Of a stretch of DNA of 40,557 nt, positions 9,202 to 36,150 are shown one piece after another (position 1 is the stretch's first letter; the number at the start of each line of letters is the position of its first letter). Source of the stretch: Halomicroarcula saliterrae (GTDB lineage Archaea; Halobacteriota; Halobacteria; Halobacteriales; Haloarculaceae); assembly GCF_031624395.1 (NCBI RefSeq), contig NZ_JAMQON010000010.1:1-40557 (forward strand), read 5' to 3'. The translations under genes and the position numbers were made by a program. The notes under the pieces were generated by a model that saw only the letters and a program-made list of their open reading frames with translations, ran no database searches and was not told where the DNA came from.

Positions 9202-9260
9202 AGTTCGAGAGGAGGCGATAGTGACATCGTGGCCTTCATCCTCACGTGGTGTTCCAAGCA

Positions 9261-11066
9261 ATGAGAGCCAACTACAGACAGCGTGGACAGAACCGACTGA
9301 CGAACGCAGAGATCGAACAGGGTAGCCGCTTCGACGAATTAGATATGCGCGGCCTCTATGCGAGCCCGCATCTGCAGAGTGACTGCTTGGGGACTCGCTT
9401 GGAGAACGCCGGCGAACTGTTGCTCGCCGCTCGTTCCGAGCCCGAATACGATGAATTCGGGGAGCCAATCGAAGGCACCGGTCAGGTAGAACTCGACGCC
9501 CACTGGGTGAACGCTAGCCTCCGAACGAGCGTCGCTACGGATATCGACCCGATAGATCTGGCCGACGAGGATCTCACTGGCCTCCCACTGGAAGCGCAAG
9601 AGCGCCTGCATGGGCTTCGATCCGAACGCAAACGCCAGCGTGAGAAAGCCTTAGCTGCAGCTGTAATCGGTATCGACCGAGAGGCTCGTCGACGGGATGA
9701 ACTCCTCGATGAGCAGCGCAATCGTCGGGAGGACTACCTGGACCGCGTGCTCGGCGCTGGACTCACTCGCTACGATCCGTTTGAACGCCTCGACGGCGGG
9801 ACGGCAGCTACCGTTCGCGAGACGGCCGCGAAACTGTCTGATCGGTTGCTCACTGGCCCAACACTTGAGGCCCTTGAACACCGCCTTGCGGGCAAGGTTC
9901 TCGGTGGGCAGTCACTCTACACAGCGATGTCGAACCTTCAGGATGAGTGCTTCCAGGAGGCAGGCGTTATTCAGCCCATCGCGACGGTCCCTGTAATCCC
10001 ATCGAAGTACAACGTTGAGGCCGACATCCAGGGCGAGGTCACGACACTCTGGCAGCCAAAATCGTCGTCCCAACAGCAGGTCGGCATCATCAAAGACGAC
10101 ACGGGGACAATCAAGTTCACTATCTGGACCCGCTCAGGGCAGGATGTCATCCTCCACGAAGGCGACCTCGTCCGAATCGTCGCCGGAAAGGTCGGAAAGT
10201 ACAACGACCAAGCGACGCTAGCGGCGGATTCTGAGACGCTCATTACTATCATCGACCGGGGGGATGGGCCGGCGCCGCGGGGCGATATCGCTGACGTCGA
10301 CTGGGAGGCGGTCAAAGAGCGCAACATCAAGCGCGGAATCGAACAACCCCATCAAGTGCATTCGGCGAAGACGATCCCGGCTATGGGTGCGCCTGGTGTC
10401 GAGAAGGTTTCTCGTCCTGTCCATACACCACCCGACCGGCTTGATGAGTCGGAGGGCAACGGCGTCGACGCAGGTGAGTGGCTGAAGGCGACGGAAATCT
10501 ACGAAGAAGGTGGCGCGATTCCACTCCCCGAGTGGTGGCGGACTCAGGATAACGTCGTCACCGTCGACGTCGACGATGATGCCTCCAGTCAAGCAGTCAA
10601 CGCTGCTATCCAAGAAGTGGTCGCGAATACGTCAGCACCGGATGCTGAGCCTGCATCAGCTGGATGGGAGTCCGATGATACTGCTGAGACCGATGCCGAA
10701 CAGGTGGTCGTTCCCGATGGCGGTCAGACCATACACAAGGCTCCGATCCCTCCGGGGAAACGCCGATTCTGGGCGCTCATTCGTGATGAAGCGTTGTTCG
10801 GAACTGCATTGCAGTCCGTGAGTGAATCCGCGCCAGCGTCGACAGCAGCCAGCGAACTCGTGGGTGTCGCAGAACGGCAGGAAGATGTCGAAACGACAGC
10901 TATCTCAGAGCCGGATATCATCCTTCCGTCGACAAGTGCGACGTGTCCGGAGTGTACTCACGACCGGGCACACTATCGCCTCGTCCAGCTGCGTTCTATT
11001 GACGAACCTCCAACGAGAATGCTGACCTGCTGTAAGTGTGCTAATCGATGGCGAGAGGACAACTGA
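9261..11066 (+). CDS. OB-fold protein with C-terminal TFIIS/TFS-type zinc ribbon
   Basis: The 601-aa protein has three parts. The N-terminal ~240 residues are charged and helical (LRSERKRQREKALAAAVIG, RRDELLDEQRNRREDYLD). An OB-fold spans about 250-335 (VEADIQGEVTTLWQ, VGIIKDDTGTIKFTIWTRSG, LHEGDLVRIVAGKVGKYNDQ). An acidic linker leads to a zinc ribbon in the last 40 residues: CPECTHDRAHYRLVQLRSIDEPPTRMLTCCKCANRWRE. This is the TFIIS/TFS domain III pattern, including the acidic DE dipeptide before the third cysteine that TFIIS inserts into the RNA polymerase funnel to stimulate transcript cleavage. The combination suggests a nucleic-acid-binding protein that contacts RNA polymerase. GTG codons at 9246 and 9249 are alternative starts; I chose the ATG. 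Confidence 0.7.
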   Translation: MRANYRQRGQNRLTNAEIEQGSRFDELDMRGLYASPHLQSDCLGTRLENAGELLLAARSEPEYDEFGEPIEGTGQVELDAHWVNASLRTSVATDIDPIDLADEDLTGLPLEAQERLHGLRSERKRQREKALAAAVIGIDREARRRDELLDEQRNRREDYLDRVLGAGLTRYDPFERLDGGTAATVRETAAKLSDRLLTGPTLEALEHRLAGKVLGGQSLYTAMSNLQDECFQEAGVIQPIATVPVIPSKYNVEADIQGEVTTLWQPKSSSQQQVGIIKDDTGTIKFTIWTRSGQDVILHEGDLVRIVAGKVGKYNDQATLAADSETLITIIDRGDGPAPRGDIADVDWEAVKERNIKRGIEQPHQVHSAKTIPAMGAPGVEKVSRPVHTPPDRLDESEGNGVDAGEWLKATEIYEEGGAIPLPEWWRTQDNVVTVDVDDDASSQAVNAAIQEVVANTSAPDAEPASAGWESDDTAETDAEQVVVPDGGQTIHKAPIPPGKRRFWALIRDEALFGTALQSVSESAPASTAASELVGVAERQEDVETTAISEPDIILPSTSATCPECTHDRAHYRLVQLRSIDEPPTRMLTCCKCANRWREDN

Positions 11067-13335: not shown

Positions 13336-14352
13336 ATGTCCACAGAATCTTCACCCGCAACTGGTCGTCGACAACAGAACCAAGACCGCGCAAAACACTC
13401 TACGGAAGAAACATCTTCGCGCCAGACACCATCGGAGCGCTGCTGTCCTGAGTGTGAGAGCGACGACTTGGTCGTTCAACAAAACGAAACGTACTGCGAG
13501 GGATGTGGCCTCGTTGTCCACCGTGACGACCTTGATCGTCGCCGGAGGTGGAACTACACCGAGAGTGGACGTGAGCCCGAACGGACTGGCTCTCCAAGCA
13601 CTCCTCGGCTCCACGACCGAGGCCTCTCGACCGATATCGGCTACTACCGGGACGGCGCCGGAAACCCGCTCGATTCGAATACTCAACGGCTGTTTTCGCG
13701 CCTCCGTCGCTGGGATGCTCAGTCGAAAGTCCCCTCAAAACGGGATAAATCGCTGCGGGATGGGCTTAGCGAGATTGCTCGGCTCATTAGCGTTCTGGAC
13801 CTCTCAGACACGATATTCGACGAAGCCGTGGATATCTATCGGAAAGCGTGGGGTGCGAACTTGCTCAAGGGTCGCTCCATCGAGGCGATTGCCAGTGGTA
13901 GTGTCTTCGCGGCCTGCCGACTGGAACAGCTACCCCGGCATAGAACTGAGGTGGCCGACGTCGCCCGTGTCGACAGTGATGCGATCAATAACGCCTATAC
14001 GCAGCTGAATCGGGAATTGGAATTGGCAATCCCACCACCCCTTCCGCAAGATTTCCTCCCACGTATTGCGTCGACAATCGGAGCGGGCAATTACATTGAA
14101 CAACGTGCCCGAGAGCTGCTTCTTTGTCCTGCGGTCGGCAGACTTTCGAATGGACGACCGCCGTCTGGGGTTGCAGCCGCCGCATTATATCACGTTCAGC
14201 AGGCTGAGACTGATGGAAAACGCGCATCTCAAAAGGCCATTGCTGAAGCTGGCTTCACTTCCGCACTCACCATTCGAACGATCTGGCGGAAGCTTCAGGA
14301 GCTCGAAAAGGAGGGTAAATTGTGCGACAACGCCGATACGACCCTTACCTAA
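13336..14352 (+). CDS. tfb: Transcription initiation factor TFB (plasmid-encoded)
   Basis: TFB binds TBP-TATA complexes and recruits archaeal RNA polymerase. This 338-aa copy has an N-terminal zinc ribbon (CPEC at 37-40, CEGC at 54-57) and a B-finger/linker region (DLDRRRRWNYTESGREPERTG, STDIGYYRDGAGNPL). Two cyclin-like core repeats follow, at about 125-215 (LSEIARLISVLDLSDTIFDEAVDIYRKAW..SIEAIASGSVFAACRLE) and about 225-325 (SNGRPPSGVAAAALYHVQ..SALTIRTIWRKLQEL). All hallmark segments are present, so it should be functional. Haloarchaea carry several TFBs that direct different promoter sets; a plasmid-borne one may favour plasmid genes. It has its own backbone element and is followed by pcna. 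Confidence 0.92.
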   Translation: MSTESSPATGRRQQNQDRAKHSTEETSSRQTPSERCCPECESDDLVVQQNETYCEGCGLVVHRDDLDRRRRWNYTESGREPERTGSPSTPRLHDRGLSTDIGYYRDGAGNPLDSNTQRLFSRLRRWDAQSKVPSKRDKSLRDGLSEIARLISVLDLSDTIFDEAVDIYRKAWGANLLKGRSIEAIASGSVFAACRLEQLPRHRTEVADVARVDSDAINNAYTQLNRELELAIPPPLPQDFLPRIASTIGAGNYIEQRARELLLCPAVGRLSNGRPPSGVAAAALYHVQQAETDGKRASQKAIAEAGFTSALTIRTIWRKLQELEKEGKLCDNADTTLT

Positions 14353-14418
14353 CACACCCGGCGGTAATCAGCCAAGCGGTAGCGTAGGACGATTGGAAAA
14401 GAACATCTCCAATGCTGA

Positions 14419-14444
14419 TTTGTCACCCCCGATGCGGTGAGGGG
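14419..14444 (+). promoter_or_regulatory. Backbone element copy e, before pcna
   Basis: TTTGTCACCCCC, then GATGCGGT and GAGGGG. This is one of the best matches to the consensus, and GCTGA precedes TTTG as in copy d. It lies about 90 bases before the pcna ATG. Confidence 0.7.
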
Positions 14445-14534
14445 AGATAAGCCTGCAAGTGTGCTACCAAGGAGCCACTGCATTCCTTGGATTTTCCCGC
14501 CACTGCGAATCTATCGCAGAGCAACTAATCGATT

Positions 14535-15551
14535 ATGAGCACGAACACTGAATCCACAGCAGACGCACAGCCCGAAGACGATATCGACAATCTGGAAATC
14601 GAAGCCGCCCCGGAAGGTACGGTTGAAGAAGACGATACTGACGCAACAAGAAACGAAGGCGTCGATGGTGAGGCTGACATCGACGGTGAGCCAGCAGCCG
14701 ACCTGACCGACGAGCAAGACACCAGTGAGGAGTCGATAGCGGAGGCTTCCGACGAAGCTGATGCCAAAGACGAGACTGAGGAGGAAAGCGTACTCACGGG
14801 CCCTCCAGAGCGCTTTCAGGCTGCGATCTTGGGTGGCGAACTCAAGAATTTTGTCTCAACGCTGCGAGTCCTCGTTGACGAGGCGAAACTGACTGTTGGA
14901 CCGGACGGCATTACTAGCAGAGCGGTTGACCCAGCGAACGTCGCGATGTACGATCTAGAACTGTCGGCTGCTGCATTCGAATCCTACGAGTCCAGTGACG
15001 GCTTGCTGGGAGTCAATCTGGAGCGATTCGAGTCCGTTCTAAAACTCGCAAAGAAAGATGATCTCGTCCAGGTTTCGTTCGACACTTCCACGTACAAGCT
15101 TCTCATCGTCATCGACGGTGTCGAGTTCACGATGGCGTGTATCGACCCCGATAGTATACGGCAAGAACCCGAGATTCCAGAGATGGAACTCCCAATCAAC
15201 CTTACCGTTGAGGGGAGTCAGATATCGCGAGCGGTGAAGGCTGCTGACATGGTCTCCGATCACATTGGATTCCGCTGCGTAGAAGCTGACGAAACAGTGT
15301 TCATCGAGGCTGAAGGTGATACCGATGACGTCTCGCTCAGACTCATTGCTGACGAATACGAGAGTCTAGACGCCGCTGACGGACGAGCACTATTCAGTCT
15401 TGACTACATCAAGAACATCTCCAAAAAGCTTCCCAAGACTGAGGATGTCACTCTCACATTCGGAGACCAATTCCCGATGCTGGTAGACTACGAAATTGCA
15501 GACGGCGAGTGTAGTGTCGCAGCGATGGTGGCTCCACGTATCGAGACCTGA
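14535..15551 (+). CDS. pcna: DNA sliding clamp PCNA with acidic N-terminal extension
   Basis: Residues about 88-338 are a complete archaeal PCNA: FQAAILGGELKNFVSTLRVLVDEAKLTVGPDGITSRAVDPANVAMYDLEL, then VNLERFESVLKLAKKDD, the interdomain connecting region around PEIPEMELPINLTVEG, and domain II ending LPMLVDYEIADGECSVAAMVAPRIE-like. The preceding ~87 residues are an extra tail almost wholly of Asp, Glu, Ala, Ser and Thr (TEEDDTDATRNEGVDGEADI), absent from the ~247-aa chromosomal form. PCNA tethers polymerases, FEN1 and ligase to DNA. The acidic tail could tune partner choice or distinguish the plasmid clamp from the host's. The stop codon overlaps the ATG of the small zinc gene. Confidence 0.92.
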   Translation: MSTNTESTADAQPEDDIDNLEIEAAPEGTVEEDDTDATRNEGVDGEADIDGEPAADLTDEQDTSEESIAEASDEADAKDETEEESVLTGPPERFQAAILGGELKNFVSTLRVLVDEAKLTVGPDGITSRAVDPANVAMYDLELSAAAFESYESSDGLLGVNLERFESVLKLAKKDDLVQVSFDTSTYKLLIVIDGVEFTMACIDPDSIRQEPEIPEMELPINLTVEGSQISRAVKAADMVSDHIGFRCVEADETVFIEAEGDTDDVSLRLIADEYESLDAADGRALFSLDYIKNISKKLPKTEDVTLTFGDQFPMLVDYEIADGECSVAAMVAPRIET

Positions 15552-16782: not shown

Positions 16783-17991
16783 TCAGGCATCCAGAGAGAG
16801 GACGATATCTGCATCCCACAGGAGGGTGTATTGGCTGTAATGTCCTTTTCCTTCACCAGTCCCCCGTCGGCTGCCCGCAATTTCTAGGAAACAGAGTTCG
16901 TTGAGCAATTGCCGTGTTCGTTCGGCTGATAGCGGATCGGCACCACTCTGCTCACACACGTCGAGATACGTCTCGCGTATCTTCATCGTCCGGAACCACT
17001 CCCGCTCAGGCTGGTTTTTCGTGAGATTCGCCAGCGCGATCAAGACATGTTTGCTGTGAGGAGGCAACCCCGATATGAGTTCGAGTAGACGGTCAACTTC
17101 TGCCGAAGCCCGTGCATCAGAGAGGTGAGATTCCTTCACCCGGTCGGCGTTTTCCTTATTCGCTTGGTCACCAGCATACCGAAGGAGTCGCATGGCCTTT
17201 CGAGCATCTCCGTGTTCTTTCGCGCTCAGAGCAGCCGCACGAGGAATCACCCCGTCGTCGAGAACTCCATCAGCAAAGGCATCAGTCCGATTCTGGAGAA
17301 TTTCCCGGATTTGACTGGCGTCGTAGGGCTCAAAGATGAATTCGTTGTGCCCGAACGAGCTCTTTGTCCGCTCGCTCATCTTCTCCCGGTAGTTAATTTT
17401 GTTCGACACTGCAATCACGCCAATCGGAACATCCACACTCCCGTCCTCTCCTGCCCGAGAAAGCGCCATCAACAGGTCGTCGTTATTGAGTTTGTCAACT
17501 TCATCGAGGATGATGATCGCAGCGTCGTAAAAATCATTCAGCACCGACCAGACTCGCTCGAAATACTCATTCTCGGAAATCCCTCGGGCTGGGAACGTCA
17601 TACTGCTCTCTGGTGGGTTGATTGCCCGACCGTACTTGCTCAGGGCGTCGGAGTTGCCCTTTGCCTGCTGGCAATTGACGTATCCCGTTGCAAGCCTCAC
17701 ACCGCGATTCTCCGCTTCTTCTTTAGCGATTTTTGAGACGTGCTTTGCGACGAGGGACTTTCCACAGCCCGTTTTCCCGTAGATGATGATCGAATTCGGC
17801 GGCTGACCAACGACTATTGGCCCGATCTCTTCTGCCACCTTCTCAATTTGTTCATCGCGACCGACGATGCGCTTCTCACTGGGGACATAGTCGATTTGGA
17901 GTATCTCCCGTTGTTCAAAGATTCCCCCACCACCCTCGTCGATATTCTCAAAGACACTGTGGATAGTGTCTGACCCATCTTCGCTATCCAT
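16783..17991 (-). CDS. orc1/cdc6: Orc1/Cdc6 replication initiator
   Basis: AAA+ initiators of this family bind origin repeats and load the MCM helicase. The protein shows the Orc1 N-terminal motif VPSEKRIVGRDEQIEKVA, Walker A GKTGCGKS (about residues 72-79 from this start), Walker B IIILDEVDKLN, sensor-1 VIAVSNK, the sensor-2 arm EHGDARKAMRLLRYAGD, and a C-terminal winged helix (VLIALANLTKNQPEREWFRTMKIRETYLDVCEQSG..GKGHYSQYTLLWDAD). At 402 aa it is full length. A TTG four codons upstream (18003) is also in frame; I chose the ATG at 17991. The origin repeats begin within 40-120 bases upstream on the other side of its promoter, the usual haloarchaeal arrangement, so this is very probably the plasmid's own initiator. 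Confidence 0.93.
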   Translation of the reverse strand: MDSEDGSDTIHSVFENIDEGGGGIFEQREILQIDYVPSEKRIVGRDEQIEKVAEEIGPIVVGQPPNSIIIYGKTGCGKSLVAKHVSKIAKEEAENRGVRLATGYVNCQQAKGNSDALSKYGRAINPPESSMTFPARGISENEYFERVWSVLNDFYDAAIIILDEVDKLNNDDLLMALSRAGEDGSVDVPIGVIAVSNKINYREKMSERTKSSFGHNEFIFEPYDASQIREILQNRTDAFADGVLDDGVIPRAAALSAKEHGDARKAMRLLRYAGDQANKENADRVKESHLSDARASAEVDRLLELISGLPPHSKHVLIALANLTKNQPEREWFRTMKIRETYLDVCEQSGADPLSAERTRQLLNELCFLEIAGSRRGTGEGKGHYSQYTLLWDADIVLSLDA

Positions 17992-18030
17992 TGTCAGAAT
18001 CAAACAGTTGTAACCGCAATAAAGATTTGG

Positions 18031-18049
18031 GGACCGAGTTAGGAGTAAT
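18031..18049 (+). repeat. Degenerate origin repeat
   Basis: GGACCGAGTTAGGAGTAAT keeps the ACC-N-AGTT-N-GGAGTAA core of the full repeats but lacks the GAGACAC half. Confidence 0.45.
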
Positions 18050-18111
18050 AATCTGGATATAGGCCCTGAGAGTCTTGATATATAGATTCCCGTCTTACGA
18101 AAAACTCAGTC

Positions 18112-18135
18112 GAGACACACCAGATTTTGAGTAAG
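18112..18135 (+). repeat. Origin repeat 1
   Basis: GAGACACACC followed by AGATTTTGAGTAAG. The consensus over the copies is GAGACACACC, a short variable part with TTT, then GAGTAAG. Confidence 0.75.
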
Positions 18136-18143
18136 GGGTTGCA

Positions 18144-18169
18144 GAGACACACACCAAATTTGGAGTAAG
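18144..18169 (+). repeat. Origin repeat 2
   Basis: GAGACACACACC followed by AAATTTGGAGTAAG, in the same orientation as repeat 1 with start-to-start spacing of 32 bases, about three helical turns. Confidence 0.75.
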
Positions 18170-18276
18170 AAATAGAAGAGAGGTGAGGTCGGAAAGAACC
18201 GCAGTTAGAGCTGTGCTTGTTGGTTTACACCTTCTGAACCTACTACACTACTACTTACTAGAATAGCTAGACTAGA

Positions 18277-18300
18277 GAGACACACCTAGTTTGGAGTAAG
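18277..18300 (+). repeat. Origin repeat 3
   Basis: GAGACACACC followed by TAGTTTGGAGTAAG. It is the same orientation as repeats 1 and 2, separated from them by about 105 bases. Confidence 0.75.
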
Positions 18301-18352
18301 AAAACCTCCCTAGACACCAGTATCTGACCCCCTATCCCACTGAATCTACATT

Positions 18353-18379
18353 CCTTACTCAAAATCAGGTGTGTGTGTC
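18353..18379 (-). repeat. Origin repeat 4 (inverted)
   Basis: CCTTACTCAAAATC followed by AGGTGTGTGTGTC is the reverse complement of the repeat, giving the opposing pair expected around a bidirectional origin. Confidence 0.75.
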
Positions 18380-18443
18380 GTCTGCTGACCTTCCAGATAC
18401 TGACATTTCAATTGGCACAATGGCCGCTTCCATTACCTGCCAA

Positions 18444-18618: not shown

Positions 18619-20121
18619 ATGTCAGCAAACTCACCCTCGCACTCTGACCAGCAGAGCGCAGTGACACCCAGTGAACAGAGCGCCGATGGATCGGCTGAAC
18701 CAACTTCACAGAAGAACGACTCGCCAACTGTACCGATAGCCGATCTTCTGAAACAGGAATCTGTCCTTCGGTTCGCTGGTCTCACTGAACACGATTCTCA
18801 GGACTATCCAAATGAACTCGAGAGTAACATGTGGTGTCGGTCGAGTACTCCACAGACGTTCAAAGATGTCGTAAAGGCACTCCCAGCAGCGTCTTCTGGT
18901 GAACTGTGGGCGACAAACGAGTTTATCGGGACTTCCGGAGACGTTGATATCGACGCTATACGCTCCGTCGAGGGGCTGGATATCGAGGCTCTGGAACGAG
19001 GCACTGGCTCAGCTCTGGAGACGATAGCACAACGGTCGGCTGCTGAACCTGTGGTGGACGTACAGGACCACCAGGACATCGTCGACGAGCGACGAAAAGC
19101 GTTACACGCTCTTGGCTACGATGTCAAATTTCGGTGGCAAATCGCCAGCGACTCATACACCATCATCAATCCGCAAGATGCGTATCTCCCAATCATCAGC
19201 GCCCTCCAGCAACGGGGAGAAGATGACGTATTCGGATGGGCTTCCTACCGGGATTGGGGTGGACTGTTGAAGATGGTCGTCGTCTGTCCAAGTCTTCGCC
19301 GTGTCGTCTCTGCCGGTGAGGAAGATCTGGAAGAACTGGATGACGATGGTCTCAAAGCTGCCACCTCCGAAGACGAAGCTCCGGAAACAGTGGTGTATGG
19401 AGGCTTTCAAACTGGCTACGATTTCCGGGGGACACAGACACTCTGGGCACGGCCTGTTCTATTCTTCCCGGCTTCTGGAACTGTCCTTCCCGACACAGGA
19501 AAGCGATACACCCGCCGCCACTACGGAAAGGCCACTGATGCGGCTCACGAACGGGCAAACAATCGGACTCCTATCAACGAGTGGTGGCGGTCGATCTACG
19601 ACGACATCGATACCCGGATGGTCACAGTCGAAACGGCAATTCAGCGGTCGCGGGCAATCGCGTATGACTTCGAAGAACTCCCGTTCAGTCTGCAGGAGTG
19701 TTACACGTACTGGGGGATCGCGAAGAAGTACGCCGAACGGGCGGCGAATCGAGCACAGACAATTGCCCGTCCGACAACTCGCCCAACCGTGTTCAATATC
19801 CAGTTGTCGTTGCTCATTGCGCTTCTTGAAGAGTACAATGGGTCGATGGCTTCGAATTCCTATCAAGAGTATATCGAAGTAGCCGGCGAGCTCTACCGGA
19901 CGCCGTCGATGATGATTCAACTGGCCATGCAGGAGCACGACAAGCAAACTACCGATTCAACTGACCGAGTGCTTCCCGGCGACCAGCAGACTCTATCTGA
20001 TTCGTTAGAAGATCTCATCGACATTCCTGGAATCTCCGTCGACTCGGAAGTGGATCTCTCGAACAAACAGGCCCAGCGTGTCCAACACGGTGTTCAGAGG
20101 CAATTGGACCACTTGGGATGA
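18619..20121 (+). CDS. Uncharacterised 500-aa protein (DUF932-like layout)
   Basis: After an acidic/Ser N-terminus (about 60 aa) comes a substantial folded region: YDVKFRWQIASDSYTIINPQDAYLPIISALQQRGED, WASYRDWGGLLKMVVVCPSLRRVV, TVVYGGFQTGYDFRGTQTLWARPVLFFP, and a helical end (AIAYDFEELPFSLQECYTYWGIAKKYAERAANRA, NIQLSLLIALLEEY). The order 'YxIINPxDA', rate-like strand pair and 'GYDFRGTxxLxxRPV' resembles phage/plasmid DUF932 proteins, but I cannot confirm homology. The gene starts beside the origin and has its own backbone element, so a role in replication or copy control is plausible. An in-frame ATG at 18502 would add 39 residues of poor quality; I chose the ATG at 18619. Confidence 0.65.
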   Translation: MSANSPSHSDQQSAVTPSEQSADGSAEPTSQKNDSPTVPIADLLKQESVLRFAGLTEHDSQDYPNELESNMWCRSSTPQTFKDVVKALPAASSGELWATNEFIGTSGDVDIDAIRSVEGLDIEALERGTGSALETIAQRSAAEPVVDVQDHQDIVDERRKALHALGYDVKFRWQIASDSYTIINPQDAYLPIISALQQRGEDDVFGWASYRDWGGLLKMVVVCPSLRRVVSAGEEDLEELDDDGLKAATSEDEAPETVVYGGFQTGYDFRGTQTLWARPVLFFPASGTVLPDTGKRYTRRHYGKATDAAHERANNRTPINEWWRSIYDDIDTRMVTVETAIQRSRAIAYDFEELPFSLQECYTYWGIAKKYAERAANRAQTIARPTTRPTVFNIQLSLLIALLEEYNGSMASNSYQEYIEVAGELYRTPSMMIQLAMQEHDKQTTDSTDRVLPGDQQTLSDSLEDLIDIPGISVDSEVDLSNKQAQRVQHGVQRQLDHLG

Positions 20122-21676: not shown

Positions 21677-22374
21677 GGCGGTGTTTAGTTAAGCGTGAAA
21701 AGTGAGGCGGGCGAATTTCTTGGTGCTCTATGCCAGAAATCGTCCGCCTCAGCGGTAGTAGCGACTGGATAGATTTGGATTTTGTGGAACGCGAGCGGAC
21801 ACCCGAGCGAGCGATGAAGCTCGGTATTCAGATGCACGTGGCTGGTCTATCACTATCGAATACTATCTCTGTTCTTGATAATTTGGGTGTCAATCGTTCC
21901 AGAAAAGCCGTCCACGATTGGGTGCAAAAAGCCGATTTACAGCCAATCAGCGGCAAATCACCGAATCAGATTGCAGTCGACGAAACGGTGATTCGAATCA
22001 ACGATCAACAGTTCTGGCTGTACGCCGCCGCGAATCCGGCAACAAACGAAATTCTCCATCTACGGCTATTTTCGACCACTACAACCGCTCTCACCGAAAT
22101 ATTTCTCAAAGAACTGCAGCAAAAACATGATGTCGAAACCGCCGTATTTCTCGTAGATGGTGCGAAACACCTCCGAGCTGCCCTTCAACGAGCAGGCCTC
22201 CGATTTCAGACAGAACGCCACGGAAATCGGAACGCTGTCGAACGTATCTTTCGAGAAGTAAAACGACGAACCTCTTCTTTCTCAAACTGTTTCAGCCACG
22301 TCGAACCAAGTACAGCTGAAAATTGGCTCCAGAGTTTCGCTCGCTGGCACAATGCTCCAAACTAAACACGACCC
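21677..22374 (+). mobile_element. IS6-family insertion sequence
   Basis: The left end GGCGGTGTTTAGTT and the right end AACTAAACACGACC (inverted, two mismatches) bracket one transposase gene in about 700 bp. This is the size and layout of haloarchaeal IS6-family elements. No 8-bp target duplication is seen (CGTACGAG left, CCTCTGGA right), so the copy may have formed by cointegrate, deletion or recombination with the adjacent relic. Confidence 0.8.
21730..22365 (+). CDS. IS6-family transposase
   Basis: This 211-aa DDE transposase has a short N-terminal HTH region (PERAMKLGIQMHVAGLSLSNTISVLDNLGVNRSRKAVHDWVQKA) and the catalytic triad D84 (IAVDETVI), D143 (FLVDGAKH) and E171 (NAVERIFREVKRRT). 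The closing SFSNCFSHVEPSTAENWLQSFARWHN is the family's usual end. Full length and apparently active. The gene starts 50 bases inside the left end and stops at the right inverted repeat. Confidence 0.9.
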   Translation: MPEIVRLSGSSDWIDLDFVERERTPERAMKLGIQMHVAGLSLSNTISVLDNLGVNRSRKAVHDWVQKADLQPISGKSPNQIAVDETVIRINDQQFWLYAAANPATNEILHLRLFSTTTTALTEIFLKELQQKHDVETAVFLVDGAKHLRAALQRAGLRFQTERHGNRNAVERIFREVKRRTSSFSNCFSHVEPSTAENWLQSFARWHNAPN

Positions 22375-23104: not shown

Positions 23105-23130
23105 TTTATCTCTCCCTGCTGGATGAGGAG
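23105..23130 (+). promoter_or_regulatory. Backbone element copy j, before the MoxR gene
   Basis: TTTATCTCTCCC, then TGCTGGAT and GAGGAG. TTTG is TTTA here and the last block is GAGGAG, but the spacing and flanking CTGA fit. It lies 28 bases before the ATG at 23159 and decides for that start over one at 23123. Confidence 0.5.
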
Positions 23131-23158
23131 TGCAGAACATGCCTCCACACATAGAAGC

Positions 23159-24772
23159 ATGTCTATCAATTCATCCACGACACAGACGAGTAGCGATGGG
23201 TCTCCGGAGGGACAGCGGGTTCTCTCCCACTTAGTCCACCGACTCCTGCGAGCCGAAGGAGGGAGTGTACCTGTCGAACGGGTCACGCTCAGAGTCTCGG
23301 ATTTCACTGACTTGAGCGACCAGCAAGCAGCAGACCTCATCGACGAAGGAGAGAAGAGCGGAATATACACACTCACACGCTCGAGTGGCGGTAGCGCAAC
23401 TATCGACAACGTCGTTCCCCAGGGAGAGGAACCGGAGGTGATTACCGCCGCATTTGGTCAGGGTCCACCAGACGACACTGTTGACTTCCGTATAATCGGT
23501 GTCGTAACTGATTCAATCAACGATGCACTCCAGGAAGCCGGCTACACTGACTTGGGGGCCCTCTCGGAGGCAGACATCGACGACCTCACACACTTGACTA
23601 GTACCCTCACTGAGAGCCGAGCTGAGGCTATTGTTGCGGAAGCTAAGCAACACGTTCCCGTTGGTCATACGCTGGCCGAGCGAGCGGCGTCGTACTATGC
23701 TCAGCGAAGCAATCCAGCAAGTGGCGTGGGTGAGGCCCGCGTTACTGATTTAACCAACATTACAGAGACAGTCGGTGAGCCGCGCTACCTCTCTAAAGGA
23801 TGGGATGCTGGCGATGAACGCGGGATGTACGTATCTGATGTCGGTCGCAACACGACTAAGCCAGTTCCGACTGGATTGCACATCCTCGATAATCCGGACT
23901 ACCCAGGTGTTCCCAAAGCAGAGACTCATCCCGATGCCAGCTACGATGCCCTGCCTGTTGGCGAGGATGGAGCAGTTATCCCTCCCGCTGTCCCCATCGA
24001 TCCGCGTCTTCAGCTCCCACTTGACGAACTCATTGCGAAGAAACTCGCACGAGGGCTCGTTCCTATCCGAGTGGTAGGCCCGCGAGGGTCGGGGAAGAAC
24101 TATCTTATCAAGTACCTCTGCCACAAGACAAATCGTGGCTATCAGTCCATCGACGTCGACCGGGCGACGGAGCCCGAGGACCTCTTTGGGCCACTTGTTC
24201 CCGACGGCGACGTGATCATCCCACGCAACGGCGCCGTGAAACAGGGGCTGATCAACGGCGATACAATCGTCATCAACGAGTTCCCTGTCATGCAAGCCGG
24301 GGCAGCGATTGCGCTGCACCGACTCCTGAACGAGGGGACACTCCTGGTCAAGAGCCACGGCGAACTTGTCGAACCACACCCCTCGGCGCGACTCATCATC
24401 ACGATGAATCCGCCAACCAGAGAATACAGAGACTCGGAACCGATGAACTCGGCGACGAGAGGGCGCTTTCGGTCGTTCGAGCAACCGTACATCCAAGATA
24501 TCGACGAGGAAGTCGAGACATTGTATCCGCAGGTCAACGGTGACACCGAAGTTGTGGACCGTACGACCCTGAAGCGAATCGTCCGGTTTGCTCACAAGAC
24601 CCGCGAAAACGAGAACTGGCCGACTCTCAGCACACGGAATCTCACAATCCTCTGTGAGCACATCGAAGACGGAGCATCCCCGAAAGCCGCTACAAAGAAT
24701 GAACTCTGGGCTGTGGCAGAACCCAATCAGTACCCGGAAGATGCTCACGAGACGCTGAACGATATTTTGTGA
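23159..24772 (+). CDS. MoxR-type AAA+ ATPase with wHTH and HhH domains
   Basis: The 537-aa protein starts with a winged-helix-like domain (VLSHLVHRLLRAEGGSVPVERVTLRVSDF..AADLIDEGEKSGIYTLTRSSG). A helix-hairpin-helix region follows at about 115-170 (VVTDSINDALQEAGYTDLGALSEADIDDLTHLTSTLTESRAEAIVAEA). The C-terminal half is an AAA+ module: Walker A GPRGSGKN (307-314), a Walker B-like TIVINEF in which the usual Asp is Asn373 before Glu374, sensor 1 in LIITMNPP, and an arginine-finger candidate ATRGRFRSF. MoxR ATPases act with vWA proteins as chaperone-like remodellers; the vWA gene of this window is 2.7 kb downstream and shares the same element. The wHTH and HhH suggest action on DNA. Asn in Walker B is odd for an active ATPase. 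Confidence 0.8.
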   Translation: MSINSSTTQTSSDGSPEGQRVLSHLVHRLLRAEGGSVPVERVTLRVSDFTDLSDQQAADLIDEGEKSGIYTLTRSSGGSATIDNVVPQGEEPEVITAAFGQGPPDDTVDFRIIGVVTDSINDALQEAGYTDLGALSEADIDDLTHLTSTLTESRAEAIVAEAKQHVPVGHTLAERAASYYAQRSNPASGVGEARVTDLTNITETVGEPRYLSKGWDAGDERGMYVSDVGRNTTKPVPTGLHILDNPDYPGVPKAETHPDASYDALPVGEDGAVIPPAVPIDPRLQLPLDELIAKKLARGLVPIRVVGPRGSGKNYLIKYLCHKTNRGYQSIDVDRATEPEDLFGPLVPDGDVIIPRNGAVKQGLINGDTIVINEFPVMQAGAAIALHRLLNEGTLLVKSHGELVEPHPSARLIITMNPPTREYRDSEPMNSATRGRFRSFEQPYIQDIDEEVETLYPQVNGDTEVVDRTTLKRIVRFAHKTRENENWPTLSTRNLTILCEHIEDGASPKAATKNELWAVAEPNQYPEDAHETLNDIL

Positions 24773-24868
24773 ATCTGCCTACGGCGGGAAGGGAGGTAGC
24801 CACTATCCGTCGTCATACTTACTTGCCCATCTTCTGTCTGTGTTACGTACTGCTATCAAATCGCGCAC

Positions 24869-25792
24869 TCATGGCGTCACCTCGTACTTTTCAGCTAGTT
24901 CCTGGAAGTCCTCCCACTCGGGAAGTCGAGACGTCCGCTGGTCTCCGCTGGTGTCGAGGTATGTGCAAAGATCGTCGACGACGTCGTCGACGCCGTACTT
25001 GGTGGCCTGAGCTCGGAGTTCGTCCCTGTCGATACTGGCGTGACTGAGCAAGAGTAGGCAATATGACTGAGCCCGTGCACCCGAATCAATCACGAGCATA
25101 TGGCAGCACAATATCTCCGGTGAGAGTTCACTCATCGTCTTCGAATAGAGGTAGTATCGGCGGTCACGGGCCAACAGCGGCAGGTCATATCGCTGGAATT
25201 GGTCCGGCCCTGTCGGAATGAAGTGTTCTTCGGTAATCTCAGTCGTCGTCTGGACAAGGAACTCGTCGAGGGCTTCCCACAGAATGGTGTACGTGTTGGC
25301 CTGTTGTTCGACAGTCTGGCGGTGACCGTGATGGGCAAGCTCACGAGCGAATGCACTCAACTGTTCGAAGCCGTCATTCAGTGCGTACGTCCCATTGTCG
25401 GTTTGGTAGACGATTCCCCGATGCTGAAGCGGGGAAAGCGCACGGTGGACGCTACTCCTGTGGACATCGGTGTGACGTGCGAGATCAGTTACAGTCCGTG
25501 GGGTATCGAGAAAGTAGCAAACACGGAGAGCAGCCCCTGACAACAGCTCCGGCCAGTCAATGTGTGAATACTGCTGCGTGAGAGCGGCGAGTAATTCGAG
25601 TGCTTTTGCGTCCGATAGTCGAATCTGCTTTGTCTTTCCTTGTCGACGTGTCTCGACGAGTCCAGACGTTTCGAGCTGTTCGACGAGTTTTGAGGTATAG
25701 CTGAGACTTCGATCGAGATTCGCCGCGAGCTCAGAGACCGTCTGCTCACCGCGGAGGGCAGTGAGGGCGCGAATCTCGCCTTCTGTGAGCAT
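24869..25792 (-). CDS. Regulator with two winged helices (MarR/ArsR-like)
   Basis: The 307-aa protein has one wHTH at residues 1-60 (EGEIRALTALRGEQTVSELAANLDRSLSYTSKLVEQLETSGLVETRRQGKTKQIRLSD) and a second at about 88-145 (LRVCYFLDTPRTVTDLARHTDVHRSSVHRALSPLQHRGIVYQTDNGTYALND). A C-terminal helical domain follows (SKTMSELSPEILCCHMLVIDSGARAQSYCLLLLSHASIDRDELRAQATKYGVDDVVDDLC). Proteins of this layout often precede a nucleotidyltransferase as the antitoxin of a two-gene module in haloarchaea, but no partner is adjacent here, so it may be an orphan. A TATA box lies about 25-30 bases upstream. The family call is recognition of architecture only. Confidence 0.7.
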   Translation of the reverse strand: MLTEGEIRALTALRGEQTVSELAANLDRSLSYTSKLVEQLETSGLVETRRQGKTKQIRLSDAKALELLAALTQQYSHIDWPELLSGAALRVCYFLDTPRTVTDLARHTDVHRSSVHRALSPLQHRGIVYQTDNGTYALNDGFEQLSAFARELAHHGHRQTVEQQANTYTILWEALDEFLVQTTTEITEEHFIPTGPDQFQRYDLPLLARDRRYYLYSKTMSELSPEILCCHMLVIDSGARAQSYCLLLLSHASIDRDELRAQATKYGVDDVVDDLCTYLDTSGDQRTSRLPEWEDFQELAEKYEVTP

Positions 25793-25813
25793 ACTGTTGC
25801 ATAATAGCGAATC

Positions 25814-25825
25814 AATATATAAATC
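25814..25825 (-). promoter_or_regulatory. TATA box of the two-wHTH regulator
   Basis: On the minus strand GATTTATATATT lies 22-33 bases before the ATG, the spacing of a leaderless haloarchaeal promoter. Confidence 0.5.
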
Positions 25826-25849
25826 ACTTCGGTATTTTGCAACGCCAAA

Positions 25850-25872
25850 CCGCTATTTCATAGCGGGTTTTT
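25850..25872 (+). terminator. Hairpin with T-run
   Basis: CCGCTAT-TTC-ATAGCGG (perfect seven-pair stem) is followed by GTTTTTT. It has terminator form for + strand transcription, yet no + strand gene lies just upstream, so it may block read-through from outside or be an element end. I see no supported gene in 25793-26195; a 107-aa minus-strand frame there looks like chance. Confidence 0.35.
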
Positions 25873-26195
25873 TACCATCGCCGAACTGATAACAGGTGTC
25901 CCCACCAGTACTGATTTAGAGAGCGCGAGTCCGGTCAGTACAGGCCATGGATGTCTCGTTTGTTTCTCTGCTTCCAGCATGGATAGGAGTACTTGGTCTT
26001 CACCATCCTTATATAGCCAGAGTGACATTCTACTGTACGGAATCACAGTTTCACACTGTGCGTTTGTCCCGACGATGAAGGGGCCGCTTGAACCGGGTCT
26101 ACCGGACGTGCAGGGGGTTATCCCTTGTTCTCTTCGCGTGGTCGTCACGCGGAACGCCTTAACAAACTCCGCATTCCGCACTACGAGCCACCACT

Positions 26196-26384
26196 ATGTC
26201 ACAAACCACCGACTCGGCGTCACTCGACAGCATGTTCGACGCCCTACGAAACCCGTACCGCCGACGAATCATGCTCGCTATCTCGGACCACAATCCACGC
26301 GATATAACTGAATTTACCCAAAACAAATTCGCATCCCCCACATTGGTCAATACAAGTGAACCAGTGAGAGAGACTGGTGATTGA
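26196..26384 (+). pseudogene. Truncated haloarchaeal HTH regulator
   Basis: The first ~40 residues (MSQTTDSASLDSMFDALRNPYRRRIMLAISDHNPRD) match the start of the common small haloarchaeal ArsR/DUF7344-type regulators, which run to about 100-120 aa. After FTQNKFAS the frame no longer resembles the family and stops at residue 62. It lacks the recognition helix and wing, which suggests an internal deletion. A complete domain is not recoverable in the other frames. Confidence 0.55.
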
Positions 26385-26409
26385 GCGGCTTGAAGTCATT
26401 TTTTGGTTC

Positions 26410-26790
26410 TTACGTATTATCCTTTATTATCTGTCGGCATGATTCAATGAATTCAACCAAGTCTCGACCGGCGTCTCGCGAAATGCTAATGAGAATTATT
26501 TCTGATTCTGAATATGGGAACTGAATTATACACGCGTTCTCATGGTAGTCAACTAGAGCACGTCGTTCCCCTACCGGTTTACCTTCAAGTCCGGGTGATA
26601 GAAATGGATCTTGAAGCCGGAATGTGTTTACGACTTCTCTGTATCCTTCTTTTGTATATTCTTGTTGTAGATCGTCATTGAGATAGTGGATGTCGAAATC
26701 GTCGTTCTTGATAATGACTACTGTCCGAAGACCGTGGCCAATGCGGTCATAGATGTACTCTGCAAGTATTTCTGCTGCCTGTTCGACCAT
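26410..26790 (-). CDS. DUF7522-like hypothetical protein
   Basis: The 126-aa protein follows the layout of a widespread haloarchaeal small family: an N-terminal helix (AAEILAEYIYDRIGHGLRTVVIIKNDDFDIHYLNDDLQQEY), a central charged helix, then two strands (ENACIIQFPYSESEIILISISRDAGRDL) and a final helix. The paired motif 'LRTVxxFxxxDxxxxYLRDDL' supports the DUF7522 call. The function is unknown. It is adjacent to the broken HTH gene, which ends 26 bases away on the other strand. Confidence 0.6.
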   Translation of the reverse strand: MVEQAAEILAEYIYDRIGHGLRTVVIIKNDDFDIHYLNDDLQQEYTKEGYREVVNTFRLQDPFLSPGLEGKPVGERRALVDYHENACIIQFPYSESEIILISISRDAGRDLVEFIESCRQIIKDNT

Positions 26791-27411
26791 ACAGCATTTT
26801 AATACCGGCCAGAATATAGTTACTTCTAACTGGATCTGTCATTATGGTAGACTACTCGGCCTTTCGCGTATCCCTGTGTAAAAAATTCGCCCGAATCTCA
26901 GTGCAGAAGCAGACACCGATACACCAGAAGGGAGGTTTCTCGGGGACCGAATCTTGAACGCACGCGACTCAATACCGGCTTCAGTATCTAATTACTGTCA
27001 TAGGCATTATTGGCTTTGTTGTAATCCTCAGAAGATGATACATTCTGACTCTGTGCGGTCAATACAAGCCAGTGAAGACTTGCTTCGTCACACTGACTTT
27101 GACCACTTGTGGTTACACTTTGAACACTCGAAATTATGGAACGCTTCCCCATCTTTGTTTTCTGTTCCCGTCGATGCGGCGAGAGGATATTCACATTCTG
27201 GGCACGCCGTAGTGGGCATATTGACCGTTTATCCCATACACAGAAACATCTATTGCCATGTTGGGCCGTGCAAATCACTTCGCACACCTACTGAGCAGAT
27301 AGTTCAGTAGTCTCTGAGTGAAACAAATTGAGGCATCGTGCTGACTACACTGTCTATATTCCGCACCAAAGTAAAATTTGGCGCAAAATAATATTTTTCA
27401 GGACCGGCTGG
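26791..27411. other. Gene-poor stretch with IS-end-like fragments
   Basis: No supported gene was found. GGCTTTGTTGTAATCC at 27012-27027 resembles the IS ends at 15889 and 21558. GTGCTGACTACAC at 27339-27351 is repeated at 38996-39008, and ACTGAGCAGAT nearby is the inverse of ATCTGCTCAGT at about 38929. Short Cys- and His-rich frames over 27040-27310 are unconvincing. The region probably contains remains of transposable elements, with the promoter zone of the downstream vWA gene at its end. Confidence 0.4.
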
Positions 27412-27437
27412 TTTGTGTCCCCCAACTCACAGAGGGG
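27412..27437 (+). promoter_or_regulatory. Backbone element copy i, before the HELLH-vWA gene
   Basis: TTTGTGTCCCCC, then AACTCACA and GAGGGG, with consensus spacing. It lies 25 bases before the GTG at 27462, which argues for that start; the frame is open further upstream through the element. Confidence 0.7.
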
Positions 27438-27461
27438 CGTTCCATTCAGGAGTTTTCAATC

Positions 27462-30233
27462 GTGCCGCCATCCGCCACTAAGCTCACCGCCAGAAGTATC
27501 GTCAACGAAATCAATCCCCAGGTGACTGAAGTTACTCGCCTGTCGTCCCAGCGGGCTGACCGACTGCGAGAGTTTATCTGCGGCCATCTACCTCCCGACA
27601 TATCGATCTCTGTCCGAGTCTCACTGGGTGTGCAGACCGCAGCCATGCTCCCTGCCGACGTCGACGCAGTTGTCTCATCAGATGCGACCGAAATCGAACG
27701 CAATCAAGCCGAAGCCCTCTTAGCCGATATCGATGCGGACTACTTGGTGCTGATAACGGGGAATGAGGCCGACTTAGACCGAATCCCACTCAACGATCAA
27801 CTCACTGCCGATCACGCACACCAGTTCGGACTCGCATTTCACGAACTGCTCCACATCCTCAAAACCGCTATTAGTGGCATCGGCGACCTCATCGAGGCTA
27901 GCGTCGAATCAAAGTACCACGAACAGGTTCACGACCTCATCAATATCATCGAGGATGGGGCAATCGAGTCAGAAGCGATTCACGGCGACAATTTCAGTGA
28001 CAACGCTGGCATCCGTCTGGAATTGACTCGGCGTCTCCACTCACAGACGCCAGAGGAGTTACCTGCGGACAAGTGCCTCAAATATTCTTTCTGGGACGCA
28101 GTGACTGGATATCTCTACGACAGAACTATTTTCGAGACTGGCACAATCGACTGCTTGCTCAACCCGAAGGATACACGACTCGAGTTCTTGACCGAGGTCG
28201 ATAGAGATGCGTTTCTTAACGTCCGGAAACAGCTGGATGAGATGGTCGACAGCGCCCTCAAAATACGGAGCGCAAGTCGAGAGGATACCGACCACGGACA
28301 TGATAAGACCGCTTCACTCCGCAGAGCACGGGTCGTAATCGACACCTGGAACAATGCCATCGAGCCGTTGCTCGAAGTAGACGACGAGCCCAAGCAAACT
28401 TCCAGCGAAGACGGTGCTACTGCTCCGGAAGTAGACAACAATGCTGCAAGGGGGGCTGAAGCAACCCACGAATCACAAAATGGTGATCGAGATGCAGATT
28501 CGAGCCGAAACGAAGGGGGGTTGTCAGATTCACTGACGACAGAACCCGCTGGTGACCAGGACGAGAATTTCGACACCGACGTTACACTCGACCGTCAAAC
28601 CACGGAGACGTCTGGACAGGATATCTTTGAGCAGCCGCTGATTACACCTGAGCCTGATTCGACTACACCGGGGAGGTTAGATCCGTCTGGTGGAGGCGGC
28701 GGAATTGAGCCAGAAACTGCTTCGGCATCGAATAGTTCCCCCTCCCAAAGAAGTCCAGAACGACCCTCGGATAATTTGGATAATATGGATGATCCGAGTT
28801 ATCAAGATACTGCAGGTGACCGGACTGAGGACGAAACTGTTGAACCACAAACGAAGGCGCAGGCAATCGCACAGGCGACGGAACGTGCAAGGGAGACACA
28901 GCAGGCCGATGATGGTCATCATGGGCAGGATGCGGTAGACGATGGTGACGACAAGCTGGAGTCAACAGCCAGTCAACTCACACTCGATACTTTCGAGCGA
29001 GACCGCCAACAAACCCCTGGAAATAATCCAAATTCGGAGGTTGAGGAGAGCGCCGGCGACGCCGAAGGAGGTTCGACGAATCTTCCCAGTCCCGATTTAC
29101 AAGGGTCGATATCATCACCTGACGCTGAGAGCAACCGTGATGACGCGGAGATGGGGCAGAGTGGCGGAGTCGATAGTATGGCCCCCGAACTGCCAAGCGT
29201 CGCTGAAATCCCATCAGGACCGGCTCACGGCCAGCAAGAAGATAGCTCCTCGAGAGGAGATACCGAGACCTTCGAGACGGCGCTCTCTCAAGACAAGCGA
29301 GCAGCCCACGGTGAAGCCACAAGAAATGGTATCGATGAAGAGGCCCTCGAAATTGAATTCGAGGCGCTAGCGGACCAATTCGCACGTGAGACAGGAGAAG
29401 AGCAGGAGAAATCGTCCGCTCCCTTAGAACAAGATGAAGGCTCGGCAGGCGGCCCCGGCAGCCTTGAGGAATTGAATGTCTTGCCAGTGGGTGGAACTCC
29501 CGTTCCGAGAAACGAGTGGGCTGACGTAGAGAAAAGTGCTGAGCGGGTCGGAGACACGCTCGATATGTATCTCAGGTTAGATCGGCGAAAGAGTGTTCGT
29601 CGAGGACTCACAGCCGGCGCGTACGACACCAGGGCAGGACATCGGTTGGCAATCGGAGACCCTCGTGTGTGTAAAAGTCGGACCCTCGGAAACGAGAAGC
29701 AGTACTCCTTGGTCCTTATTCTCGATCGGTCGGGGTCGATGCGGAGAGGGACACCCGCAAAAATTGATGTCGCCACGAAAGCCGTCGCACGATTCGCTGT
29801 CGCAGCCGAAGGGCTGGGAATCAACGTTGCAATCGTCGACTTCATCGACAACGAAGCCCGTCTTGCCAAGCCGTTCAGTGTCGACAGCAGGCACCTCCAG
29901 GCAACGTTGCTCGATACCTCCTGTGGCGGTGGGACGCCTCTGGCAGACGCTATCTCACTTGGGAACCAACTAGTGGAAACACAGCGTGACGAGCCGCTTA
30001 TCATCACAATGACGGATGGACTCCCCAGTGACAGCGACGATGTCGAAGTTCAGATTCGGGACTCAATCGCTCCAGTCTGTTCGCTGACGCTCGCAACGGA
30101 TTGTACCCCTGGGTCTCCTCCAGCTAGAGCAGAAGAACTAGCCCCGTATTTCGAGCGGGAGTCAGTAATCTACTCGGCCGAACGGCTTGATGATCGGCTA
30201 GAACAGTTCGCGAGTTTGCTCGCGGGCTTTTAG
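27462..30233 (+). CDS. Giant protein: HELLH metalloprotease-like N-terminus and C-terminal vWA domain
   Basis: The 923-aa protein has three parts. Residues 1-300 contain FHELLHILK with an HExxH zinc-protease motif at 127-131, followed by a downstream acid-rich IINIIEDGAIESE helix that could supply the third ligand. Residues about 310-690 are a disordered acidic linker rich in Asp, Glu, Ser and Gln. The C-terminal third is a von Willebrand A domain with the MIDAS motif DRSGS (755-759), the TDG motif (851-853) and the strands LVLILD, VAIVDFI and LIITMTDG. Such combinations resemble the CobT/ViaA-like vWA partners of MoxR ATPases. The start is the GTG at 27462 after CAGGAG. Confidence 0.8.
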   Translation: MPPSATKLTARSIVNEINPQVTEVTRLSSQRADRLREFICGHLPPDISISVRVSLGVQTAAMLPADVDAVVSSDATEIERNQAEALLADIDADYLVLITGNEADLDRIPLNDQLTADHAHQFGLAFHELLHILKTAISGIGDLIEASVESKYHEQVHDLINIIEDGAIESEAIHGDNFSDNAGIRLELTRRLHSQTPEELPADKCLKYSFWDAVTGYLYDRTIFETGTIDCLLNPKDTRLEFLTEVDRDAFLNVRKQLDEMVDSALKIRSASREDTDHGHDKTASLRRARVVIDTWNNAIEPLLEVDDEPKQTSSEDGATAPEVDNNAARGAEATHESQNGDRDADSSRNEGGLSDSLTTEPAGDQDENFDTDVTLDRQTTETSGQDIFEQPLITPEPDSTTPGRLDPSGGGGGIEPETASASNSSPSQRSPERPSDNLDNMDDPSYQDTAGDRTEDETVEPQTKAQAIAQATERARETQQADDGHHGQDAVDDGDDKLESTASQLTLDTFERDRQQTPGNNPNSEVEESAGDAEGGSTNLPSPDLQGSISSPDAESNRDDAEMGQSGGVDSMAPELPSVAEIPSGPAHGQQEDSSSRGDTETFETALSQDKRAAHGEATRNGIDEEALEIEFEALADQFARETGEEQEKSSAPLEQDEGSAGGPGSLEELNVLPVGGTPVPRNEWADVEKSAERVGDTLDMYLRLDRRKSVRRGLTAGAYDTRAGHRLAIGDPRVCKSRTLGNEKQYSLVLILDRSGSMRRGTPAKIDVATKAVARFAVAAEGLGINVAIVDFIDNEARLAKPFSVDSRHLQATLLDTSCGGGTPLADAISLGNQLVETQRDEPLIITMTDGLPSDSDDVEVQIRDSIAPVCSLTLATDCTPGSPPARAEELAPYFERESVIYSAERLDDRLEQFASLLAGF

Positions 30234-30263
30234 CCCCAGTTAGACGTCTGAGATCACCGCTAG

Positions 30264-35956: not shown

Positions 35957-36150
35957 TGACATCCTCCCCGTCGTAAACGACGGGGCTTCCCACACGGTGG
36001 GAATGCCAGTCAGTCGTCGCTGGCAGTGGGTTTCGACTCTTGAAACGTTGTGAGTGTCATCTGCGAGGGTGTCTCGCTCTGCTCACACTGAGTCGTGGCG
36101 GTGTCACAACCGCTCCCGTCCTGTGGCGAGTCATCGCCTGCTTGTTTCCA
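35957..36150 (-). ncRNA. Putative omega RNA at the 3' end of tnpB
   Basis: TnpB nucleases use an RNA formed from the 3' part of tnpB plus the element's right end, with the guide taken from DNA just past that end. The right-end hairpin and the overlap with tnpB are in place here; the guide would read into the 3' end of the 35600 gene (minus strand). Coordinates are inferred from family knowledge, not from a transcript. Confidence 0.4.

Follow-up and report, generated by a model that had tools for sequence, protein, structure and literature searches.

A predicted replication origin with clade-specific initiator boxes and a CTAG block beside orc1/cdc6 in Halomicroarcula saliterrae

The region 18029–18377 is very probably the replication origin of the C10 replicon of Halomicroarcula saliterrae and, as judged from sequence comparison, it would be bound and opened by the adjacent Orc1/Cdc6 protein. 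The window (the whole stretch of DNA analysed here, 40,557 nucleotides) is the entire contig C10 of a 4.2-Mb genome. The evidence is that the repeats are present, that they occur and diverge together with the initiator, that their layout is conserved, and that a CTAG-rich block is calculated to be of low stability. An earlier note had predicted an origin with initiator repeats beside orc1/cdc6, and this prediction is well supported by the co-occurrence of the boxes with one Orc clade, by the conserved layout and by membership in the family of the Haloarcula marismortui pNG100 origin.

Repeat boxes and the initiator gene

The features of the region are as follows.
16783–17991, minus strand: orc1/cdc6 initiator gene, 402 aa, with AAA+ part, Cdc6 lid and C-terminal winged helix
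18016–18022, minus strand: putative orc1 TATA box CTTTATT, about 26 nt from the ATG (from the sequence and the conserved AATAAA..TT in the alignment)
18029–18050, plus strand: degenerate box ORB0, just upstream of the orc1 promoter elements
18093–18111, minus strand: inverted degenerate ORB facing ORB1, with CTTAC.CAAAACT conserved in the origin alignment
18112–18135, plus strand: ORB1 (repeat search, mismatch search, 11-origin alignment)
18146–18169, plus strand: ORB2 (repeat search, mismatch search, 11-origin alignment)
18241–18278, no strand: CTAG block, candidate DNA unwinding element, with CTAG at 18258, 18267 and 18272 directly before ORB3
18277–18300, plus strand: ORB3, inner box of the convergent pair (repeat search, mismatch search, alignment, relatives)
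18354–18377, minus strand: ORB4, inverted partner of ORB3 (repeat search, mismatch search, relatives)

The box sequence GACACACCnnnTTTnGAGTAAG is present as three direct copies and one inverted copy at 18112–18377, upstream of orc1/cdc6. The repeat search returned the direct copies at 18109–18138, 18143–18172 and 18274–18303, and the inverted copy at 18350–18379. Using the 22-mer GACACACCNNNTTTNGAGTAAG with at most three mismatches, four matches were detected in the 40.6-kb window, all of them at this place, versus 0.01 expected by chance, and 0 of 100 dinucleotide shuffles reached four. These results confirm the three direct and one inverted near-identical repeats described in the earlier note; repeated ORBs including an inverted pair flank orc above chance. 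In the whole 4.2-Mb genome, with at most two mismatches, the sole extra sites are four on contig C9 (72040–72297). The degenerate extra copy mentioned before is also real (ORB0, at about 18029–18050): almost every one of the eleven aligned origins keeps its ACCnnnTTAnGAGTAA. The 57%-identity Orc clade has counterparts of ORB0, likewise degenerate and close to the start of the gene, and ORB0 is a possible autoregulation site. Two elements had been overlooked, namely the inverted degenerate copy at about 18093–18111, which scores two mismatches in the relatives G006 and G009, and the CTAG block at 18241–18278.

The product of orc1 matches the Pfam families Cdc6_lid (1.1e-19) and Cdc6_C (1e-18) and NCBIfam TIGR02928 with 431.9 bits (cut-off 181). 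Its nearest solved structures are 2v1u and 2qby, each of which is an Orc1/Cdc6 protein. With 402 aa, AAA+ and winged-helix parts, and a gene adjacent to the repeats, it has the features taken here to define an origin-type initiator (more than 300 aa, both domains, adjacency). No second orc was found in a contig-wide search of C10. The placement of CTTTATT may fit a leaderless orc1 transcript.

Genes for TFB and a PCNA-like sliding clamp adjoin orc1 (13336–15551). This TFB/clamp/orc arrangement recurs on a 191-kb plasmid of Haloarcula pelagica and is absent from the other relatives viewed. A gene for a 500-aa protein is divergent from orc1 (18619–20121); it is syntenic only in H. pelagica among the relatives viewed, and its product gave no match in Pfam or NCBIfam. 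Farther away, the window contains a 606-aa ORF (9246–11066) with an unusual combination of an OB-fold-like stretch and a C-terminal TFIIS-type zinc ribbon, a short fragment of a DDE transposase (21730–22365), a MoxR-type AAA_5 ATPase with a 951-aa VWA protein (23123–30233), and a TnpB-like gene with a Cas12f1-like TNB domain (36010–37284). End overlap gave no support for C10 being a complete circular plasmid: the contig has no terminal repeat and its ends do not overlap. With regard to a viral link, the origin had no match in 50,697 phage records, and no exact ORB box was found in IMG/VR contigs.

Conservation among relatives and the proposed recognition code

Clusters of at least two boxes (at most one mismatch) were detected in exactly 10 of 32 genus genomes, and these ten are the genomes with an Orc at least 90% identical. 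The ORB sequence is common to the origins of close Orc homologues in all ten and matches clade and class; in one of them (G022), an insertion breaks up the array so that just a portion of it forms a tight cluster. Database hits and gene order put the window within or next to Haloarcula. The Orc proteins of Halomicroarcula rubra F13 and H. pelagica are 99.5% (by alignment) and 98.5% identical to the window Orc, respectively. A contig scan with the single Orc protein gave one close relative only, and the relatives were taken from whole-genome searches. The ORB3–ORB4 spacing is 72 bp in nine of nine clade members with an uninterrupted pair. In the alignment of eleven origins, the conserved islands are the four boxes, the degenerate box at the promoter, the inverted degenerate box and the block before ORB3, and the sequence between them is otherwise diverged. 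The orc–origin unit is kept, and the flanking genes vary from plasmid to plasmid. This comparison shows function-like constraint on the origin region at the sequence level.

Altered copies of the cassette were also observed. One decayed copy is located on contig C9 of the same genome (71320–72297, L031). Orc residues of approximately 1–32 and 229–401 remain, the frame breaks, and the AAA+ core (the middle of the AAA+ part) is lost; the four ORBs and the CTAG block are still present. This copy might act in trans on the C10 initiator or titrate it. The genome G006 has a second origin copy (C3, 4429–6010) with four boxes and a truncated orc (residues 182–402), on the same replicon as its intact cassette (302,298–303,885). 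In G022 (C4, 85470–86970; L083 and L078), an inserted IS1341-like TnpB element cuts ORB1 and ORB2 off from the CTAG block. ORB3 and ORB4 are still together with the block there, ORB4 with one further change. If the G022 origin still works, this split suggests that the block and ORB3/ORB4 form the core unit.

The window origin could be dormant or a relic, that is, a cassette carried into a replicon now copied from another origin or lying within a larger replicon. Decayed cassettes do exist, as seen in the C9 orc lacking its AAA+ core, in the truncated second orc of G006 and in the G022 origin split by a TnpB-type element. Among predicted haloarchaeal origins, some are dormant or deficient (PMC3528665), and dormant ones are also known from a further report (PMC4595724). 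The C10 orc, however, is intact, its four ORBs, their spacing and the CTAG block are conserved, and C10 carries only this orc; we regard dormancy as improbable. The repeats could also be only an operator for the transcription of orc1 and of the divergent 500-aa gene, with Orc or another factor as the regulator. A degenerate ORB at the orc1 promoter and boxes between divergent genes would agree with such control, but the boxes, unlike the divergent gene, are conserved between relatives, and the convergent ORB pair, the weak block and the clade-matched cores are features of origins. A purely regulatory role is very improbable.

For the preferred reading, a replication origin, we infer the following mechanism. 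The Orc1/Cdc6 protein from 16783–17991 would bind the four ORBs. Its winged helix would read the clade-specific core TTTnGAGTAAG, and its AAA+ domain the ACACC end that the relatives have in common; on the opposite strand this end reads GGTGT and may correspond to the 'G-string' of haloarchaea. Once bound to the convergent pair ORB3/ORB4, Orc would open the weak CTAG-rich block just outside ORB3, and the MCM helicase would be loaded there. ORB1 and ORB2 may assist or titrate Orc, and through the degenerate promoter ORB, Orc may regulate its own gene. In H. hispanica, origins depend on the co-located cdc6 (PMC3936714).

The boxes of relatives consist of ACACC, three free bases and an 11-base core. 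Relatives with Orc identities from 62 to approximately 43% were compared, together with several paralogues of the window genome. The ACACC half is common to all relatives examined, in a search that was anchored on ACACC or ACCCC and reaches only boxes with such an anchor. The core is TTTnGAGTAAG in the window origin, TTTCGAGTTAA at 62% Orc identity, TTCCGAGTTAG at 55–59%, TTTGGAGTCCA at 53%, and the canonical-like TTTCCGGTGAA at 47–49%. Core distance tracks Orc distance (Mantel r 0.57, p 0.004, one row per clade), and winged-helix distance tracks core distance among the nearer nine (r 0.63, p 0.0006). According to the IQ-TREE tree, every ORB class with more than one row is a single clade with bootstrap of at least 98%, and the class label changes 13 times on the Orc tree, the minimum being 13. 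In the first repeat scan, the flanks were weak or truncated at four loci (L047, L053, L097 and L106); the tree excludes L047, and L097 and L106 yielded no core. The winged-helix segment varies between ORB classes in the expected region, for example SAERTRQLLNEL, STDSIRGLLNEL and SLRRVRDLLKEH, and residues of this segment would touch the DNA.

The window origin does not fit the canonical oriC1 type (TTTCC..GGTG/GGAAA core with the conserved chromosomal initiator), as its core differs. The canonical-core Orc (L002) and the oriC1-like Orc (L009) of the window genome are other genes, 47% and 33% identical. At the expected box end, GGTGTGTG(T) is present on the other strand as a possible G-string, with no run of four or more G. 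The observation that the repeats are unlike a TTTCCA..GGAAA-type ORB was correct: the window core is its own, and that consensus is close to the boxes of other Orcs, including L002. The 'distinct recognition code' proposed from this is supported for the 11-base core, which differs from the TTTCCGGTGAA of another Orc in the same genome, and does not extend to the ACACC half, which is common to the relatives examined. Haloarchaea are already known to have ORBs specific to clades (PMC3528665, PMC3936714), so a private core was to be expected and is not exceptional, a separate core per initiator clade being the norm for these origins. The data give a base-level view of initiator and boxes changing together, one half fixed and the other varying by clade. 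They also provide a ready set of Orc/box pairs to test how Orcs distinguish origins in cells with a dozen of them.

The CTAG block beside ORB3

CTAG is depleted in the window (49 found versus 78 expected; 1.2 per kb on average), and the densest cluster is that of the three copies within 18 bp that abut ORB3. Two further copies are located at 18286, inside ORB3, and at 18310. A looser second accumulation is present at 29970–30260. CTAG triples with gaps of at most 15 bases occur genome-wide only in the C10 block and its C9 copy. A search with a fixed-spacing CTAG pattern gave no match because the spacing varies, and a gapped pattern succeeded. The mean stability of the block is −1.15 kcal/mol per step versus −1.44 for the window, and 18241–18278 is an AT-rich candidate unwinding region (66% AT). 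The segment 18224–18303 is the least stable 80-mer of 17.8–18.65 kb, less stable than 99.7% of the window. A second candidate weak spot is found at 18039–18088. Unwinding between ORB3 and ORB4 was considered and rejected, as this gap is only 53% AT.

Measured from the ACACC of ORB3, CTAG begins at −24 and −15 in the eight other clade members whose ORB3/ORB4 pair is uninterrupted, and mostly at −10 and +4 too. Many members of the 57% clade carry CTAG at −25, −18 and −11 before the inner box, often with a further one at −6. Exceptions are L044, with CTAG beyond the inverted box, L099, with CTAG on both sides, and L103, without a clear block. In most origins the block ranks among the weakest local segments, and in several the weakest 40-mer is elsewhere.

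The association extends to other Orc families. In ten genomes, 16 of 28 CTAG triples fall upstream of an Orc lid domain at a distance of no more than 2 kb; within 2.6 kb in either direction, the expected number is about half a triple. At ten CTAG-triple loci of other families, the CTAGs are in or near weak DNA; they are immediately 5' of an ACAC-type box in L125 and L127, and between the two inverted boxes in oriC1-like loci. The triples near Orc genes agree with Blow et al. (2016; PMC4752239), who found CTAG to be dense upstream of orc genes in those haloarchaea that have the orphan methylase. Enrichment near these genes is already known; in the open-access literature searched, we found no earlier report placing the block relative to ORBs, that is, of its locked position beside one. 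The window genome encodes, at 108732–109757 of contig C1, a 342-aa methylase with a TSPPY motif before the SAM motif, and the gene was found in 28 of 28 good genus genomes. By conservation and class (beta-class m4C), it is a candidate for the CTAG enzyme; NCBIfam gave no specific name. m4CTAG was shown in H. marismortui, and its function was stated as unknown (DasSarma et al., 2019). Ouellette et al. (2018) doubted a replication role of CTAG in H. volcanii.

Two readings of the block were weighed. It is quite possible, and compatible with the origin described above, that the block is only weak, easily opened sequence with no role for methylation. Most relatives have the block among their least stable stretches, and deletion of the H. 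volcanii CTAG methylase, together with other RM genes, caused no growth defect (PMC5867850). Against this reading, weak DNA alone would not favour CTAG: despite the depletion in the window, 38 of 71 TA steps in the block (54%) are within CTAG versus 34 of 617 in the flanks (5.5%; odds ratio 20), in a reduced set of thirteen related origins for which the p-value is only a guide. The other reading, tentative and on balance rather unlikely, is that the block is a fixed module of haloarchaeal orc1/cdc6 origins in which CTAG methylation, in the unwinding element and in ORB3, times re-firing. If this is true, haloarchaea would possess an archaeal counterpart of GATC/Dam/SeqA, and the conserved orphan CTAG methylase would gain its unexplained role. 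A position-locked block makes the purpose of this methylase simply testable on a small origin, and the block is the part of this origin most worth bench time.

Comparison with known systems

As in the report of Blow et al. (2016; PMC4752239), CTAG clusters upstream of orc, and the genome carries a conserved candidate CTAG methylase. That study reported density over 50 kb, whereas fixed positions beside one ORB are seen here. In E. coli oriC, GATC sites, Dam and SeqA offer an analogy only: a methylase site is clustered at the origin and overlaps one initiator box, but the modification here would be m4C on CTAG in an archaeal host. We know of no SeqA-like reader for the CTAG system.

Like the oriC1/oriC2-type origins of H. 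hispanica (PMC3936714), the window origin has ORBs adjoining the initiator gene, an inverted ORB pair, initiator–origin specificity and an ACACC end as a possible G-string counterpart. Unlike them, it has a different core, GGTGTGTG replaces the long G-run, and the weak block is outside the convergent pair, not inside. The closest system is the pNG100 origin of H. marismortui (PMC3528665), in which the four ORBs, the core, the layout and the CTAG block are conserved. Its Orc is 90.5% identical to the window Orc (at least 80% with the same core, TTTnGAGTAAG, was taken to define the family). The neighbour genes differ, the TFB and sliding-clamp genes being beside orc on the window contig. Wu et al. 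(2012; PMC3528665) counted the single orc of pNG100 as origin-associated and so predicted that origin. The window origin is an ordinary member of this known kind, with a clade-specific code.
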